Positions 24,438-33,283 of a DNA stretch of 49,579 nucleotides are shown piece after piece; positions within the stretch are counted from its first letter, which is position 1, and every line of letters begins with the position of its first letter. Source of the DNA: Alphaproteobacteria bacterium (GTDB lineage Bacteria; Pseudomonadota; Alphaproteobacteria; Rs-D84). Below the pieces are notes generated by a model. The model was not told where the DNA came from and made no database searches. It saw only the letters and a list, made by a program, of their open reading frames with translations. The position numbers were made by a program, and so were the translations under genes. The DNA is taken from assembly GCA_015062545.1 (NCBI GenBank), contig SUUL01000001.1, positions 160,375-209,953 of the forward strand, in the 5' to 3' direction.

Positions 24438-24681
24438 TTAACGGGTCAAATATTTAATAATGTTTAATGTTGTTTAATTTTTCTTGATTTTCTGCGTATT
24501 GTGTCGCATAATAACTTTAACAAGATTTAATAAAAATTGGTAGCAAAATGTGAAAATTTGTGATATTAGTAGCAAATAGGTAGCAAAAAAATATAACGGG
24601 TCATAATAAATTTATTGTGATTTGTGTAAATTTAAGTTGTACGATTTATTCGTATGACTGAATAAAGAAAAGGTGTATTTG
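24438..24681. other. Left end of the element: arm-type sites, no gene
   Basis: AT-rich non-coding stretch with GGTAGCAAAA at 24539-24548 and the 19-base TAGCAAATAGGTAGCAAAA at 24570-24588, repeated near the right end. The repeats probably bind the integrase arm domain. TTTAATGTTGTTTAA-type repeats near 24454-24480 are also present. Confidence 0.6.
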
Positions 24682-25719
24682 ATGACGGAAAATATAAATT
24701 TACCAAAGGTATTTTTTTTATATAATCAAGATGGAAAACCAGCTATTAATGTTCAAGCGGGTGAAAATACTTTATGGCTTAGTCAAAAACAGATAGCGGA
24801 ATTATTTGAAACCAATGTTCCGAATATAAATGAACACATAAAGAATATATACTCTTCTGGAGAATTGGCGGAAAACACGACGATTCGGGATTTCCGAATA
24901 GTCGTAAACCGTGGCTTTCGTGGAGAAGTAGAAGAACCTATTTTGCACTATAACCTAGATATGATAATTGCGGTTGGTTATCGTGTTAATTCTAAAAAAG
25001 CAACACAATTTCGTATATGGGCGACCAAGGTTCTGCATGAATATATTCAAAAGGGGTTTGCGCTGGATGACGAACGTTTTAAGCAGGGAAATAAATTTGA
25101 TAAACAATATTTTAAAGAACTGCGTGAACGTATCAAAGATATTCGTACATCTGAAAAAATGTTGTATCAACAATTAAAAGATATTTATGCTTTATCTGCA
25201 GATTATAATCATGATAAGTTAATGACAATTATGTTTTTTGCCACAGTTCAAAACAAGGTGCATTATGCTATTACGGGGCAAACGTCGGCAGAATTAATAA
25301 AAAGTCGTGCAGATTCCACTAAAGAACACATGAATTTACAAACATGGGATAATATGGCAAAGGGTGATATTACAAAATCAGATATTGCTATTGCGAAGAA
25401 TTATTTGACTGCACCAGAATTAGAAGAGTTAAAATATATTATAAATATGTTCTTGGATTTTGCAGAACATAAGGCGAATGCAGAAGAACCTATATTTATG
25501 AAAGAATGGGAAGAAGAATTAAATTCATTTTTGACATTCAATAAAAAACGGATTTTAACAAATGCTGGCAAGGTATCTCGTATAGAAGCTTTGCGACACG
25601 CCAGTGCGGAATATGTAAAGTATAAATTACGTATAAAACAGGAAGAAAAAAACATTGCTGTTGAAGAATACAAATCTGACATCAAGGAATTGGAAAAACT
25701 GTTAAAAAATGGCAACTAA
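24682..25719 (+). CDS. RhuM-family protein
   Basis: 345-aa member of the RhuM family, named from a Salmonella pathogenicity-island gene and common on mobile elements and next to restriction systems; molecular role unsettled. The N-terminal part (NTLWLSQKQIAELFETNVPNINEHI) is a helix-turn-helix-like segment and GYRVNSKKATQFRIWATKVL is the family signature. The C-terminal half is mostly helical and charged, with a predicted coiled coil. I start at the ATG at 24682, eight bases after AAAGG; a GTG lies three codons earlier. The stop overlaps the integrase start by 11 bases. Confidence 0.85.
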   Translation: MTENINLPKVFFLYNQDGKPAINVQAGENTLWLSQKQIAELFETNVPNINEHIKNIYSSGELAENTTIRDFRIVVNRGFRGEVEEPILHYNLDMIIAVGYRVNSKKATQFRIWATKVLHEYIQKGFALDDERFKQGNKFDKQYFKELRERIKDIRTSEKMLYQQLKDIYALSADYNHDKLMTIMFFATVQNKVHYAITGQTSAELIKSRADSTKEHMNLQTWDNMAKGDITKSDIAIAKNYLTAPELEELKYIINMFLDFAEHKANAEEPIFMKEWEEELNSFLTFNKKRILTNAGKVSRIEALRHASAEYVKYKLRIKQEEKNIAVEEYKSDIKELEKLLKNGN

Positions 25720-26887
25720 TCGTATAAATTTTACAGAACGGGCGTTGGAAAGTTTGGCCGTTCCCACATCGGGTCAGGCGGTGTATTATGATACAGGCAG
25801 TCATGACGGTCTATGTGTTATAGTGACCTATGGCGGGGCAAAGACTTATTATGCATATATGAAATTCCAAGGCACACCAAAGCGGATTAAAATAGGTCGT
25901 GTGGGGCTGACTAAATTACATGATGCACGGCGTCAGGCACATACATTGAAAGAAATGGCAGATAATGGACAAGACCCGACTTTGCAACGGCGTGAAAATT
26001 TGAACGATATAACCTTTCGTCAGTTTTATGAAAATATATATAAACCCGAATATTCGCTGATTTATAAAAAGCGGCATTCGGTGGAAAATGATGACAGTAT
26101 ATTTAAACATCGGCTTAGTCAATTTCATAATCGCAAGTTGTTAAGCATTAAAATAGATGAAATTGAACGTCTGCATGTGGAAACTTGTAAAACACACAGT
26201 CCGTATACGGCCAATCGGGTTTTGTCGCTGATTAAGCATATGTATGTTATTGCGGTGAAAAAAGGGTTAATGGGGTTGCGTGAGAACCCTGCTATGGGTA
26301 TACGTAAATTTGCAGAACAAAGTAGAGATAGGTTTTTAAGTGCAGATGAGTTAAATAGATTTTTTAAAGTATTGATGGATTGTAAAAACGATGTGTTTAA
26401 GAACTATGTGATGATATCGCTATTCACGGGGATGCGGCGTAATAATGTTTTGACTATGCGCTGGGAACATGTTGATTTTGTATCTGACTTAATATATTTG
26501 CCGGAAACGAAAAACGGTCAATCTCAGTATGTGCCAATTGTAAACCAACTGCGAAATTTATTGTTAAAAATCAACTGCGGCAAGAAAAGCGGATGGGTAT
26601 TGCCAAGTAAAAAAAGTGCTAGCGGGCATTTGGAAGACCCAAAACGTCCGTGGCAATCTTTGTTAAAGGCGGCAAATATCACAGATATGCGGATTCACGA
26701 TTTGCGTCGCACGATAGCTTCATGGCAAGCAATGATAGGTAATTCTGAAGTGATTATAGGTAAGTCGTTAGGGCACAAATCGTTAAGCTCGACAATGGTG
26801 TACGCTCGTTTAAATGTTGAACCTATTCGTGCTTCTATGCAATCCGCTACAGATAAAATGATGGGGTTTGTTAACCATAATTTGTAA
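25709..26887 (+). CDS. P4-type tyrosine recombinase (element integrase)
   Basis: 392-aa integrase that should excise and insert this element at the tRNA. It has the N-terminal arm-binding domain of P4-like integrases (GLCVIVTYGGAKTYYAYMKF ... IKIGRVGLTKLHDAR), a core-binding domain, and the catalytic domain. Catalytic residues visible are Arg243 (TGMRR), His330 and Arg333 (HDLRR), His356 (GHKSL) and Tyr365 (VYARL). All are present, so the enzyme is probably active. It lies close to attL, the usual position. Confidence 0.95.
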   Translation: MATNRINFTERALESLAVPTSGQAVYYDTGSHDGLCVIVTYGGAKTYYAYMKFQGTPKRIKIGRVGLTKLHDARRQAHTLKEMADNGQDPTLQRRENLNDITFRQFYENIYKPEYSLIYKKRHSVENDDSIFKHRLSQFHNRKLLSIKIDEIERLHVETCKTHSPYTANRVLSLIKHMYVIAVKKGLMGLRENPAMGIRKFAEQSRDRFLSADELNRFFKVLMDCKNDVFKNYVMISLFTGMRRNNVLTMRWEHVDFVSDLIYLPETKNGQSQYVPIVNQLRNLLLKINCGKKSGWVLPSKKSASGHLEDPKRPWQSLLKAANITDMRIHDLRRTIASWQAMIGNSEVIIGKSLGHKSLSSTMVYARLNVEPIRASMQSATDKMMGFVNHNL

Positions 26888-27768: not shown

Positions 27769-28530
27769 ATGTGGGAAATGAAAACACTGAAAGATTTAGC
27801 GATTATTAAAGCGTTCGTGCCAGAAAAAATTCCAAATTTTGTCGGAACAGAATCAATGTTTGATTTTGTTGTATGGAATCTGTATGACAGAATTGCAAAT
27901 GGGCTGAAGTCGTTTGATTTGTTGTGTGATAACAGACGATTTTATGATGCGTTTCTGGTTGCGGGAAATGTGTTAGAAACGTGTGCTGTGCTTAGTTATA
28001 TCAAGGATAAACAAACCGAAAAAGAACGGTTGGAAAATCTGAATAAATATCTAGCACGTTCAGCGGCAGGACAATTAATTAAAACATTATCTTGGTCGGA
28101 TGATTTGAGTAAGGAAGTGGTTTGGAAAGCTTATGAATCAGGATTAAAGTTATTTGCCCCAGTTGGTGATTCAATAATAAAAAAACAAAAAAGTGACAAA
28201 ACAGACAAGGAAATTCATTGGGATATTTTAGATAAATTGAAATATCGTGATGGTAGTAATGCTGATAAAAAATCGTTGATATATTCTAATTATGTGCGGC
28301 CAGACCCGCAGGGATACGTTAGAGCTTTTTCAAAAACGTTTGATAGGTTAGATAACGGTAATTTTGAGCGAATGTATGATAAATATTGTGATTTTAAACA
28401 CGTTAATATAATGTCAAATGGTGTTGCAGCTGAAACAATGGAAGAAGATATTGTTGATTGGGCGATAGAAATTATGGCGGCTGTGGTTTTATATTTACAG
28501 CGATACGGATTAAAACCGATGGATGATTGA
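27769..28530 (+). CDS. Unknown 253-aa element protein
   Basis: Soluble, mostly helical protein with no signal peptide or membrane helix. I do not recognise its family with confidence; the pattern of helices with RFYDAFLVAGNVLETCAVLSYI and a later YDKYCDFKHVNI recalls DUF5677-like proteins, which carry a similar substrate-free helical bundle. The start could be the ATG at 27769 or 27778; neither has a strong ribosome site. It lies alone between a terminator and the C4-like RNA region, in a typical cargo position. Confidence 0.6.
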   Translation: MWEMKTLKDLAIIKAFVPEKIPNFVGTESMFDFVVWNLYDRIANGLKSFDLLCDNRRFYDAFLVAGNVLETCAVLSYIKDKQTEKERLENLNKYLARSAAGQLIKTLSWSDDLSKEVVWKAYESGLKLFAPVGDSIIKKQKSDKTDKEIHWDILDKLKYRDGSNADKKSLIYSNYVRPDPQGYVRAFSKTFDRLDNGNFERMYDKYCDFKHVNIMSNGVAAETMEEDIVDWAIEIMAAVVLYLQRYGLKPMDD

Positions 28531-28604
28531 TATTTAATTTTTGCAATTATTGGTATTTGTTGTTATCATAGGTAGTGAATCCAATAGGAAGTTGGGTTTG
28601 GGCT

Positions 28605-28776
28605 GTCGTAAGCTCTGATAAAATCCGGTGCGGTTTGCATCGTTTCTGACATGGTGTGGACTGCACCGATGTTTAACCCTGGTCGTATGGTCGGGGAGCT
28701 GGTGGTGTATAAAATACGGGAAACCGAAAGACCAACAGAATCTTTTGATTTTATCAGATTTACGAACTCCCCGACC
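28605..28776 (+). ncRNA. Candidate C4-type antisense RNA and its target sites
   Basis: Two long complementarities are arranged A-B-A'-B'. A is TCTGATAAAATC (28614-28625), A' is GATTTTATCAGA (28747-28758), 12 of 12 paired. B is GGTCGGGGAG (28689-28698), B' is CTCCCCGACC (28767-28776), 10 of 10. Between A and B lie local stems CGGTGC/GCACCG (28626-28631 / 28663-28668) and the GGTGTGGACTGCACC hairpin. In phages P1, P7 and P4 a short RNA carries two such segments and pairs with closely spaced targets downstream to silence the operon. Here A' and B' are eight bases apart and 48 bases before the next gene. Confidence 0.5.
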
Positions 28777-28823
28777 GTCAATATTCCAATTGGCGGTATT
28801 TTGATAAAACAAAGGGGTGTAAA

Positions 28824-29177
28824 ATGAAAATAGGTGATAGGGTTGTATGTAAAAATTGTGGAACAGGGTTTGTATGGGGTAAAAAACGTAAGTTATCTGA
28901 TGGGCAACAAGTAGAATTATTTGTATGTAGTATACTGGAAATATGTATTGTATTTATTGCGATTGGATATAGTACTTATGCTTTTGACATTCCTCGTTCG
29001 TTACCTTTTTTCTTTGATGATATTTCGTGTGTTTTTGGGGTGTTGTGTATATCGCTTTTATGGCCGATTATCAAATTGTGTTATATGAAAAATGGTGTTT
29101 GTTGCCCAAAATGCCAAAGTTATAAATGTGTTCCGAGTAATACGCCCGTTGCAAAGCAGTTAGCAGATAATAAATAA
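28824..29177 (+). CDS. Small membrane protein with two zinc-ribbon-like CxxC pairs
   Basis: 117-aa protein. An N-terminal CKNC (residues 9-12) and a C-terminal CPKC pair enclose two membrane helices (about residues 35-55 and 70-90). If the helices form a hairpin, the two CxxC halves would meet on the cytoplasmic side and could bind one zinc ion. Family unknown. It is first in a three-gene unit directly downstream of the C4-like RNA. AAAGGGGTG is its ribosome site. Confidence 0.6.
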   Translation: MKIGDRVVCKNCGTGFVWGKKRKLSDGQQVELFVCSILEICIVFIAIGYSTYAFDIPRSLPFFFDDISCVFGVLCISLLWPIIKLCYMKNGVCCPKCQSYKCVPSNTPVAKQLADNK

Positions 29178-29187
29178 GGAGATAAAT

Positions 29188-29553
29188 ATGAATTGGAAAG
29201 TGTTGTTTATGTTTGTTTTTTTATTTGGTGGTGCGGGCTTGGTAGTTACTGTGATTGAAAATGATTCTTTTTCAGAATTTTTTAAAGTATTTAGTTATGT
29301 AAATAAGGAAGAAAAAGCAATTCGTGTGCTAAAAAAAATTTGTTTGAGCGAGGGTAGTGGAAGTAGGTTTTGTGATTGTATGGAAGCAGAATTGCTAGAT
29401 ATTGGATTACATGAAAGTGATATAGATGCAATATTGGATGGGTATTTGCCATCACATCCTCGGTTTAATATGAGTATAATGGGTGCAAGGTTGCGTTGTA
29501 TGTGTAATGTTTATCCAGAAAAAGTAAAAATGTACGGTTTGTCATGTGATTAA
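29188..29553 (+). CDS. Membrane-anchored or secreted cysteine-rich small protein
   Basis: 121-aa protein with an N-terminal hydrophobic segment (WKVLFMFVFLFGGAGLVVTVI) that acts as an anchor or uncleaved signal. The rest should lie in the periplasm and has six cysteines (ICLS, FCDCME, RCMC, SCD), likely forming disulfides. AAGGAG precedes its ATG. Ten bases separate it from the previous gene and about 20 from the lipoprotein gene. Family unknown. Confidence 0.6.
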   Translation: MNWKVLFMFVFLFGGAGLVVTVIENDSFSEFFKVFSYVNKEEKAIRVLKKICLSEGSGSRFCDCMEAELLDIGLHESDIDAILDGYLPSHPRFNMSIMGARLRCMCNVYPEKVKMYGLSCD

Positions 29554-29574
29554 GAAATAAAAGAGGTGTTAAAA

Positions 29575-30405
29575 ATGGGAAAGATGTTGATTGTATTAAC
29601 CTTGTGTGTTTTAACGGGGTGTGTTTCTCTGTCAAAAACAGAAGTAGAACAGATGGAAATCAATAAAGACCCGATAGAAGCGGTAAATTTGTTTCATAGA
29701 TATAATTCAACACTAGAAGGGGATATGGAAGATAATTGTGTTTCTGCTATACTATCCTCAATTGGTACTTTAGGATTGGCACTTCCTGCTGTGCCTTATT
29801 ATTGTTTTTCTTATGATGTTGAAAAATTATCTGTTCCAGGAACTAGGTTTGATTGTGTTAATGGTAGTGATTCAGATGAATGTATTGTGTATCGTAGGAC
29901 GATGAAGGAATCCAAGATAAATTATTTTGATTATAAAAGATTTTTGCCGGAAGACACAGCTATAAAGACAGAGACTGATTTTTTAGCCATGGTTAATTAT
30001 TATGAATTAAGATATTTGTGTGACAAATTAGCAGAAAAAACAACAGAAGAAAAACAACAATGTAAGGATTTGATTGAAAATAATACGCGTATGATGGCGA
30101 CTAAAAAGCCAAAGTGTAAAGATTTGTATGTTACTGATGTTAGCAAGGATTATGAGGAACTGTTACAAAGAGTTGCTTCTGGGTATAATTGGATGATAGA
30201 CCATGACCCTTATGGGTATGTTGATGTATTGATAGAATCCGGTTATACTAATAAATCTATATTACAAAGTGCATATCAACCTGTATTATCAAAACGGGAA
30301 GCTTTAGAAGAGTCTTTGCAGCGTTTACGGGTTTTTGCAGATGAAAAATTTTGTGATATTGGTGATTGGAAGTCTGATTTAAGAAAAGTTGGTGCGTATT
30401 TATAA
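29575..30405 (+). CDS. Putative lipoprotein, element cargo
   Basis: 276-aa protein from the ATG at 29575 (MGKMLIVLTLCVLTGC), preceded by GAGGTG; a GTG lies three codons upstream. LTGC is a good lipobox, so the mature protein would begin at the cysteine and be lipid-anchored. The body is charged, cysteine-containing and helical, with no recognised family. Third gene of the membrane/lipoprotein cassette. A role at the envelope, such as superinfection exclusion, is a guess from location only. Confidence 0.65.
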   Translation: MGKMLIVLTLCVLTGCVSLSKTEVEQMEINKDPIEAVNLFHRYNSTLEGDMEDNCVSAILSSIGTLGLALPAVPYYCFSYDVEKLSVPGTRFDCVNGSDSDECIVYRRTMKESKINYFDYKRFLPEDTAIKTETDFLAMVNYYELRYLCDKLAEKTTEEKQQCKDLIENNTRMMATKKPKCKDLYVTDVSKDYEELLQRVASGYNWMIDHDPYGYVDVLIESGYTNKSILQSAYQPVLSKREALEESLQRLRVFADEKFCDIGDWKSDLRKVGAYL

Positions 30406-30429
30406 AAAATCCCCAAATGGGGATTTTTA
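30404..30429. terminator. Bidirectional terminator between lipoprotein gene and second recombinase
   Basis: Ten-base stem AAAAATCCCC (30405-30414) / GGGGATTTTT (30419-30428) with loop AAAT, giving T runs on both strands for the two convergent genes. Confidence 0.9.
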
Positions 30430-31956
30430 TGTTTGGTTTAGTTCTTGTTCTATTTTGTTTAGTTCAAGACCGATTTGTGATGTTGGTATTTTACCGTAGT
30501 ATTCGGCTGTGGTATAAACATCTGAATGTCCCAATGATTGACTGACGGATGTAAAAGCGGCTTGGGAATGCATTGCGGCCCATCGTGCAATAGTGTGGCG
30601 GAAAGAGTGTGGGTTTATATATCTTAATCCAGCGTTGGTAAAAGATTCTTTGAATATGTTTCTGATTGTTTTGTTGTTGTTTATGCCTGTTTTGGTTAGC
30701 TTGCTGACACCGGTATTTAATGCGATATATTTACTTTCTGTGGTCGGAAATAAAGGGTCTTTGTTTTTATATCCCATAGAAATCAATTTGTTTCGCCAAT
30801 TTATTACATTTTCTACCCATTCTTTATCAAACGGCATAAAGTATGCAATACGATGTTTGGCGAATTTTACATCCATCATTTTTGGGTTTATGTCTATAAA
30901 CCAGCGGCCAGAAACAGGGTCTTGTTTCAAATTCTGAATTTTTACAGTGCGGATTTCAGAGTTTCTTAAGCCACATAATGCCATCAAGGATACGATTGCT
31001 AAATTGCGTTGTTCTTTATCTGTGGTTCGTGGCATTTTGTTGATGGCGGTACGTATTTCTTCCAGTGTATAGCTTTCTTGATAGGCTTTTGAGCGTGCTG
31101 TTTTGCGCTGGTTGTTTGTAAGGTTACAAAAAGCTATAATTGCAGTGTTTGATGCGTTTTTGTATTTTGGTTGGGTTTGTAGCCATTTAAAGAATTCTCG
31201 TAAAGTGCTGGTACAACCTTCACAGAAAGAAACGCTATGTGTGCTTGTTGTGTGGTTTATATATTCACAAACAGTTTTTTGTTTTGGTTTATGCAGGTCT
31301 GTAAAGTTGCAATATTTTTCATATTGTCTTAGAAGTTGCATGTGGGTGACAGATGTTTTGTGGTCAAATCCTTTGTGATTGGTTAGATATATTCTGAATT
31401 TGTATTTCAGATATTCGTTTAACGGATTTGTTTTAAGAAAATCTGGTGAAATTCTATTGTTATTTTGCGATGTTGCATTTTGTGGTACAATGTTAGTGTT
31501 ATCGCTAGGGGTTTCAGAAACACATAATCTTGGTATGCCGTTCACGTTGAATATGCGATAAAGTGTGTCAAGTGTAGATATACTATAGTTTCTTAATATT
31601 GTTTTTTGACAGTGTGGGCATGTTGCGTGTGCGATAATTACGTTGCCTTGTTGTTCTGTTGTAATGTTGTTGTCTTGTGGTGTTACAGGTTGGTTACATT
31701 TCAAGCAAAGGAACTCGTTTGTTTTTAATTTTCGTGGTTGTTTGAGTTTTGCTTTTTTATTTTGTAAAAACACAATTAGTGCTGCGCCATTGATAAGTAT
31801 GGGTTTGCCATAATAACAGATAGGTAGTCCTTCTTTTATCCATGAGCGAACGGTTTGTTCGTGTAGTTTTTGTGGTTTTAATAATGTGCATATTTCGCTG
31901 ATAGTGTAACTTGTTACAGGTGAAATTGGACGTGTGTCATATTTTTGTTTACTCAT
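30427..31956 (-). CDS. Atypical tyrosine recombinase with N-terminal HTH and zinc-ribbon region
   Basis: 509-aa protein. The C-terminal half is a tyrosine recombinase: Arg331 in LCGLRNSEIR, His450 and Arg453 in HSFRHTIARW, then LGHSDVYTTAEYYGK with the nucleophilic tyrosine. A SAM-like core-binding domain precedes it (about residues 180-280). The N-terminal ~150 residues are unusual: an excisionase-like helix-turn-helix (YTISEICTLLKP...TVRSWIKEG) followed by two CxxC pairs (CLKC, CPHC) suggesting a zinc ribbon. It starts inside the end of the AlpA-like gene, so the two are translationally coupled. Confidence 0.85.
   Translation of the reverse strand: MSKQKYDTRPISPVTSYTISEICTLLKPQKLHEQTVRSWIKEGLPICYYGKPILINGAALIVFLQNKKAKLKQPRKLKTNEFLCLKCNQPVTPQDNNITTEQQGNVIIAHATCPHCQKTILRNYSISTLDTLYRIFNVNGIPRLCVSETPSDNTNIVPQNATSQNNNRISPDFLKTNPLNEYLKYKFRIYLTNHKGFDHKTSVTHMQLLRQYEKYCNFTDLHKPKQKTVCEYINHTTSTHSVSFCEGCTSTLREFFKWLQTQPKYKNASNTAIIAFCNLTNNQRKTARSKAYQESYTLEEIRTAINKMPRTTDKEQRNLAIVSLMALCGLRNSEIRTVKIQNLKQDPVSGRWFIDINPKMMDVKFAKHRIAYFMPFDKEWVENVINWRNKLISMGYKNKDPLFPTTESKYIALNTGVSKLTKTGINNNKTIRNIFKESFTNAGLRYINPHSFRHTIARWAAMHSQAAFTSVSQSLGHSDVYTTAEYYGKIPTSQIGLELNKIEQELNQT

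Positions 31957-33206: not shown

Positions 33207-33283
<77 letters not shown>

Follow-up and report, generated by a model that had tools for sequence, protein, structure and literature searches.

How does a stretch of DNA that carries two perfect, interleaved complementary pairs act on the genes that follow it? The window analyzed here, that is, the whole stretch of 49,579 nt (Alphaproteobacteria bacterium, Rs-D84; assembly GCA_015062545.1, contig SUUL01000001.1, positions 160,375 to 209,953 of the forward strand), poses this question ahead of a cassette of three plus-strand genes for membrane, exported, and lipoprotein-like products that begins at 28824. The first gene (28824-29177) encodes 117 amino acids with zinc-ribbon-like cysteines and hydrophobic segments and has no Pfam match, the second (29188-29553) encodes 121 amino acids with an N-terminal hydrophobic segment, and the third (29566-30405) has a lipoprotein-like N terminus (LTGC). 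The host genome is 0.94 Mb in size and 97% complete, and its group's named records include Candidatus Enterousia and many gut alphaproteobacterial metagenome-assembled genomes (MAGs). The cassette sits within an integrated island, in which two integrase (tyrosine recombinase) genes, at 25709-26887 and 30427-31956, and a RhuM-family gene surround it (24673-26887 and 30427-31956 in all), and a tRNA-Met gene lies at 33207-33283 on the minus strand. The gene 5' of the leader (27769-28530) is DUF5677-like (E = 1.4e-4, under the curated cutoff), and such a gene and the leader are conserved jointly in copy L224. A retron and a type III toxin-antitoxin system were also considered and dropped, as neither a reverse transcriptase nor a tandem-repeat antitoxin lies beside the window copy.

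A preliminary description had proposed a C4-type antisense RNA switch on the basis of the two pairs, and the pairs are real: A (TCTGATAAAATC, 28614-28625) matches A' (GATTTTATCAGA, 28747-28758) over exactly 12 bp, and B (GGTCGGGGAG, 28689-28698) matches B' (CTCCCCGACC, 28767-28776) over exactly 10 bp, in the non-nesting order A-B-A'-B'. Both recur in relatives, and the region 28570-28830 folds 5.4 standard deviations below dinucleotide shuffles, none of 200 being as stable, with pseudoknots and cotranscriptional order ignored in the folding. Across 30 diverse copies, A/A', B/B', and a further helix, C/C', jointly reach a covariation score of 0.493, versus 0.163 when shuffled (0 of 500), and lose it once the strands are slid; the nested structure of the leader is likewise supported by covariation. 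For A/A', 91.9% of the cells of the covariation alignment are paired, versus 35 to 51% once the strands are slid by 1 to 3 columns. The covariation expected of relatives is present in A/A', and B/B' is almost invariant (95.7% of cells paired). Shuffle folding, covariation, and the cognate-only pairing described below exclude chance repeats.

These helices belong to a plus-strand leader RNA of about 225 nt (28576-28803; our covariance model R1 matches over 1-224, E = 2.8e-43) that contains more than the preliminary description had recognized: C/C', an alternative partner of B, a terminator, a promoter, and membership in a many-copy family had all been missed. Reading 5' to 3', a sigma70-type promoter (28541-28569) consists of a -35 element TTGCAA (28541-28546), a 17-nt spacer, and a -10 element TATCAT (28564-28569); in 163 copies, TTG... 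and TATAAT-like motifs precede the leader at a constant distance. The P1 hairpin (GAATCC/GGGTTT, 28577-28599, 89% of cells paired) lies where the transcript is expected to begin, and the P2 hairpin (GGGCT/AGCTC, 28600-28615, 92%) bears in its loop the hypervariable segment C (CGTAA, 28607-28611). Next come A, also hypervariable, and immediately 3' of it the P4 hairpin (CGGTGC/GCATCG, 28626-28642, 98%), followed by B'' (28677-28684), which can hold B in an 8-pair helix (90%), and B itself. A conserved core with a hairpin (TATAAAATACGGGAAACCGAAAGACC, 28699-28746), visible in the conserved alignment columns and in the alignment to the sRNA-Xcc1 model, leads to A', C' (TTACG, 28760-28764), and B'. 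An intrinsic terminator (ACCGTC/GGCGGT with a T-rich tail, 28774-28803, 98.9%; a tail of four or more T's follows in 153 of 164 copies) precedes a Shine-Dalgarno-like AAGGGG (28812-28817) and the start codon. The B''/B and B/B' pairings are mutually exclusive, as are B/B' and the terminator: ACC at 28774-28776 is common to B' and the terminator stem, and alignment columns 249 to 251 serve both helices. The leader thus has the arrangement that defines an attenuator, an intrinsic terminator overlapping an alternative helix ahead of a gene.

How widespread is this leader? Within the genus, it is found in 46 of 59 genomes by blastn and in 57 of 59 with R1; within the order, in 107 of 114 genomes and 12 of 17 genera; and across the class, in 24 of 240 genomes. 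Counts that come from one scan of the genome contigs stand as "at least"; copies were segmented by fuzzy anchors, with some dropped, and most of the genomes are MAGs, in which contamination of single contigs is possible. Four close relatives hold 53, 39, 38, and 26 matches each (E<=1e-7). The host genome itself has about a dozen copies, some strongly diverged; those inspected keep the plan with different sequences, as in L250, where CTAATTCAGCAAAAC pairs with GTTTTGCTGAATTAG and GAACA pairs with TGTTC. Short forms of about 150 to 235 nt in the same genome (L244-L250 and L008), strongly diverged with the plan unchanged, are probably further leader subfamilies. Two genuine copies lie in viral contigs of IMG/VR (L236 and L237). 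One adjoins methyltransferases and a gene for the large terminase subunit; the other has a serine recombinase and a gene with a reverse-transcriptase domain nearby. Blastn found no homologues in named phages and plasmids. Copies also occur in contigs labeled as other phyla (L181, a Prevotella MAG; L207, Endomicrobiia), by either binning contamination or transfer. In the JAFSDI01 contigs (G013), several copies lie near contig ends, as if repeats broke the assembly. Four further candidates from pattern scans (L182, L197, L235, and L238) look like chance matches.

The promoter and leader are exchangeable between unrelated genes, mostly for exported proteins. Two copies from different species with unrelated genes on both sides (L027 and L005) are 98.5% identical over a block whose exact limits are 29 nt upstream of the leader and 3 nt past its end; therefore, either the promoter and leader move together or genes are exchanged behind them. 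A signal-like N terminus is encoded by 111 of 148 downstream genes, versus 12 of 130 controls, and the 148 genes fall into 87 clusters, 65 of them singletons. The cargo, which includes a few outer-membrane barrels, autotransporters, methyltransferases, and glycosyltransferases, has no common pathway. Might the element then be simply a mobile repeat or recombination site, in which folding matters at the DNA level and the RNA is incidental? The many dispersed copies, some of them viral, and the near-identical promoter and leader before unrelated genes are what such an element would leave behind. We nonetheless regard this explanation as very improbable, given that the copies are oriented to an adjacent start codon and have a promoter at a fixed distance, a terminator, and crossing helices that covary.

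What distinguishes the copies from one another is the sequence of A and C, which acts as a private code. In a set of 164 copies, A scores 18.7 with its own partner versus 8.0 with foreign partners (maximum of 5,000 permutations, 8.8), and the C helix scores 13.9 versus 7.7 (permutation maximum, 8.5); crossed pairings, A with C' and C with A', gave nothing comparable to the cognate signal in these copies. There are 123 distinct A 8-mers among the 164 copies, and the codes are replaced block by block at a pace that the backbone does not match: of 8 A positions, 0.08 differ between copies whose remaining sequence is at least 95% alike and 3.3 between copies in which it is 90 to 95% alike. Of particular relevance is the comparison of copies at least 80% alike, in which 0 of 144 same-genome pairs but 30 of 214 between-genome pairs are mutually readable at both codes (Fisher P = 8e-8, with the pairs not independent and orthologues inflating the between-genome count). 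Code avoidance appears among related copies only; for A alone, with relatedness disregarded, there was no signal of within-genome avoidance (11 observed, 11.2 expected). Because same-genome duplicates should otherwise share codes, we read this as selection for orthogonality among co-resident copies. Such selection would make sense only if the code were read in trans, and the pattern therefore argues for such reading.

Could the leader nonetheless be a purely cis-acting attenuator, similar to a riboswitch, in which the core senses a metabolite, a protein, or translation while A/A' and C/C' merely drift with compensation? Such a device would account for the strongly conserved core, for a terminator that overlaps an alternative helix, for the presence of all parts in a single transcript, and for a default fold that uses A/A'. 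It would not lead one to expect A and C to evolve, in blocks, far faster than the other helices of the same RNA, nor related co-resident copies to avoid sharing both codes, as a cis-only switch needs neither, nor cargo with no common pathway. On balance, we consider it an unlikely account, albeit one to be taken seriously.

We slightly favor a model in which the leader is a C4/Xcc1-like, self-recognizing RNA and the cassette is silenced by its own code via termination. In this model, transcription would start near 28576, and the 3' half of the leader, from B to B' and up to the terminator (28689-28776), would constitute an antisense RNA of the C4/Xcc1 type. Its loop A' and its strand C' would recognize, in cis, the private code that C and A form in the 5' half. 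Once free, this small RNA would presumably also read transcripts of the same code elsewhere. With C-A paired to A'-C', B would be held by B'', B' would be left free, and the terminator at 28774-28803 would form; transcription would stop, and the cassette would be silent. If the B/B' closing stem formed instead, it would take ACC from the terminator stem and favor read-through into 28824-30405. With fast-changing codes, each cassette would silence itself and same-code copies and leave tens of others undisturbed.

Does folding bear out these states? Over 146 copies, the mean equilibrium probabilities are 0.93 for A/A', 0.85 for the terminator, and 0.01 for B/B', such that the entire leader, at equilibrium, prefers a fold other than the one with B/B'. 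When A and C are occupied in silico, B/B' in the window copy rises from 0 to 0.93 and the terminator falls from 1.0 to 0.14; across the family, B/B' exceeds 0.5 in only 8% of copies under the same treatment. Occupation of A and C as a general switch thus holds for the window copy and fails in most copies, and the switch as drawn may likewise fail in most copies. We chose an OFF-by-default leader because equilibrium favors A/A' and the terminator and because most copies are unswitched upon occupation of A and C; recognition of C-A by A'-C' would then accompany termination. The opposite sign deserves mention: a free B-to-B' RNA might occupy C-A of another transcript, allow that leader's own B/B' to form, and abolish the terminator, a positive feedback. 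The flip of the window copy is what this would require, and IsrK, a homologue of the phage P4 seqA, gives read-through in Gifsy-1 when expressed in trans (PMC4825925), an observation that counts against silencing. However, the switch fails in silico in most copies, and C4 and CI RNA are repressors (PMC5320573, PMC4825925); we judge trans activation to be quite improbable.

Returning to the self-silencing leader, is it a C4 RNA, as the preliminary description had it? No Rfam family matched the leader at gathering thresholds, and the C4 model (RF01695) matched nothing even at E<=10 in the window leader and nothing in 13 further host-genome loci at E<=1 (6 loci) or E<=0.3 (7 loci). C4 proper is rejected on this ground, and what stands of the class assignment is the fold: the B-to-B' segment has the closing stem and two hairpins of C4, with A' in hairpin 2 (the place of C4 loop a) and C' in the strand before B' (the place of strand b). 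The suggestion that antisense and target lie in one leader upstream of 28824 also holds, with a topology and an order identical to those of b1-a1 and a-b in phage P4; C-A corresponds to b1-a1 and is cognate in 164 copies. The preliminary description therefore has the class right and the roles, with A and B as antisense and A' and B' as targets, for the most part reversed. B and B' form the closing stem, and by phage P4 logic, A'-C' would be the antisense side and C-A would be the target. Likewise, the small RNA of about 70 to 100 nt once predicted to end near 28700 would, by analogy to C4 and Xcc1, extend from B (28689) as far as B' or the terminator.

If this reading is correct, what would it mean? 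Each cassette is probably silenced individually, without cross-talk, via its private pairing code. More tentatively, and with somewhat less than even confidence, we propose that tens of swappable promoter-leader modules across a genome make up a self-silencing system of orthogonal immunity groups, which serves accessory genes for exported proteins in Alphaproteobacteria and in the phages of these bacteria, and that, together with Xcc1 loci and phage P4, they represent one widespread architecture of self-recognizing antisense leaders. Antisense immunity of the P1/P4 type would then no longer be confined to a few phages; it would also exist on chromosomes, where a 1-Mb genome would hold up to about 50 orthogonal copies. 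The family would also offer a large, naturally occurring collection of orthogonal RNA-RNA codes, the specificity of which is directly testable.

How do known systems compare? One of them is sRNA-Xcc1 (RF02221), a stable, experimentally seen 88-nt RNA (PMC2996969) that is located upstream of symE in integron cassettes of Xanthomonas (PMC12444791); available parts of PMC12189769 name Xcc1 and C4 side by side without drawing a connection. A permissive scan of 501 bases with the window leader yielded a full-length match below threshold (36.7 bits versus a cutoff of 53; E = 7e-5), with B/B' as the closing stem, A' placed in hairpin 2, and C' located in the single strand after it. The alignment is consistent in six host-genome copies, which score 32.5 to 42 bits and thus do not reach 53, and absent in diverged copies. 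The two appear to share the B-to-B' fold and the core sequence (below cutoff), and both have an upstream hairpin-loop C and A. In Xcc1 loci of other Pseudomonadota (L254-L283), a hairpin-loop/strand code lies upstream and is repeated in the start region of the gene that follows, in the plan [C A] - Xcc1 [A' C'] - [C* A*]. The own-versus-foreign signal is clear for upstream versus C' (20.3 versus 15.2; permutation maximum, 17.5) and for downstream versus A' (17.1 versus 13.8; maximum, 15.6); in broad windows, it is marginal for downstream versus C' (16.0 versus 14.1; maximum, 16.0) and only suggestive for upstream versus A' (17.3 versus 15.7; maximum, 17.9). Judged by sequence, Xcc1 loci thus appear to share the three-part plan of phage P4, and we propose as cis partners for this widespread RNA the upstream code and the second one at the gene start region. 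Unlike these loci, 22 of 28 of which have a T5 run upstream, where phage P4 has its terminator, the gut leader has, as a rule, neither the second code nor the upstream T run.

The immunity region of phage P4 (RF01695; a1-b1, RF03163) resembles the gut leader in its target-antisense order, in its topology, in the presence of both parts in one leader, in recognition by a loop and an adjacent strand, and in a closing stem with two hairpins. Its C4 RNA scores 74.9 bits (loop a, CCTGTGAA; strand b, TTCTCAC), and relative to it, b1 lies at -160, a1 at -144, b2 at +5, and a2 at +36, on the Shine-Dalgarno sequence; CI RNA brings about termination via pairing with seqA and seqC (PMC4825925). The plan is [b1 a1] - C4 [a b] - [b2 a2] in phage P4 and [C A] - [A' C'] - terminator in the gut leader, in which, unlike in phage P4, the terminator lies 3' of the antisense module rather than before it. 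The gut leader also differs in having no sequence-model match, in occurring in tens of chromosomal copies with private codes, and in having no general second target on the Shine-Dalgarno sequence (family scores of 11.34 cognate versus 11.14 noncognate). A second-target reading of TGATAAAA at 28803-28810, which repeats part of A before the Shine-Dalgarno sequence, lacks family support. IsrK/seqA leaders (RF01394; PMC4825925) are likewise prophage operon leaders with a homologue of the phage P4 target, a terminator, and read-through, although they occupy a single locus, differ in sequence, and form no family of private codes. Finally, the Group 1 small RNAs of Acinetobacter baumannii, as described in the available part of PMC5320573, provide many C4-derived RNAs per genome with variable recognition loops; unlike the gut leader, they match the C4 model, and that part reports no matched target. 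Multicopy C4-type RNAs are therefore not new; a matched target in each leader and an orthogonal set of such leaders are, as far as we have found.
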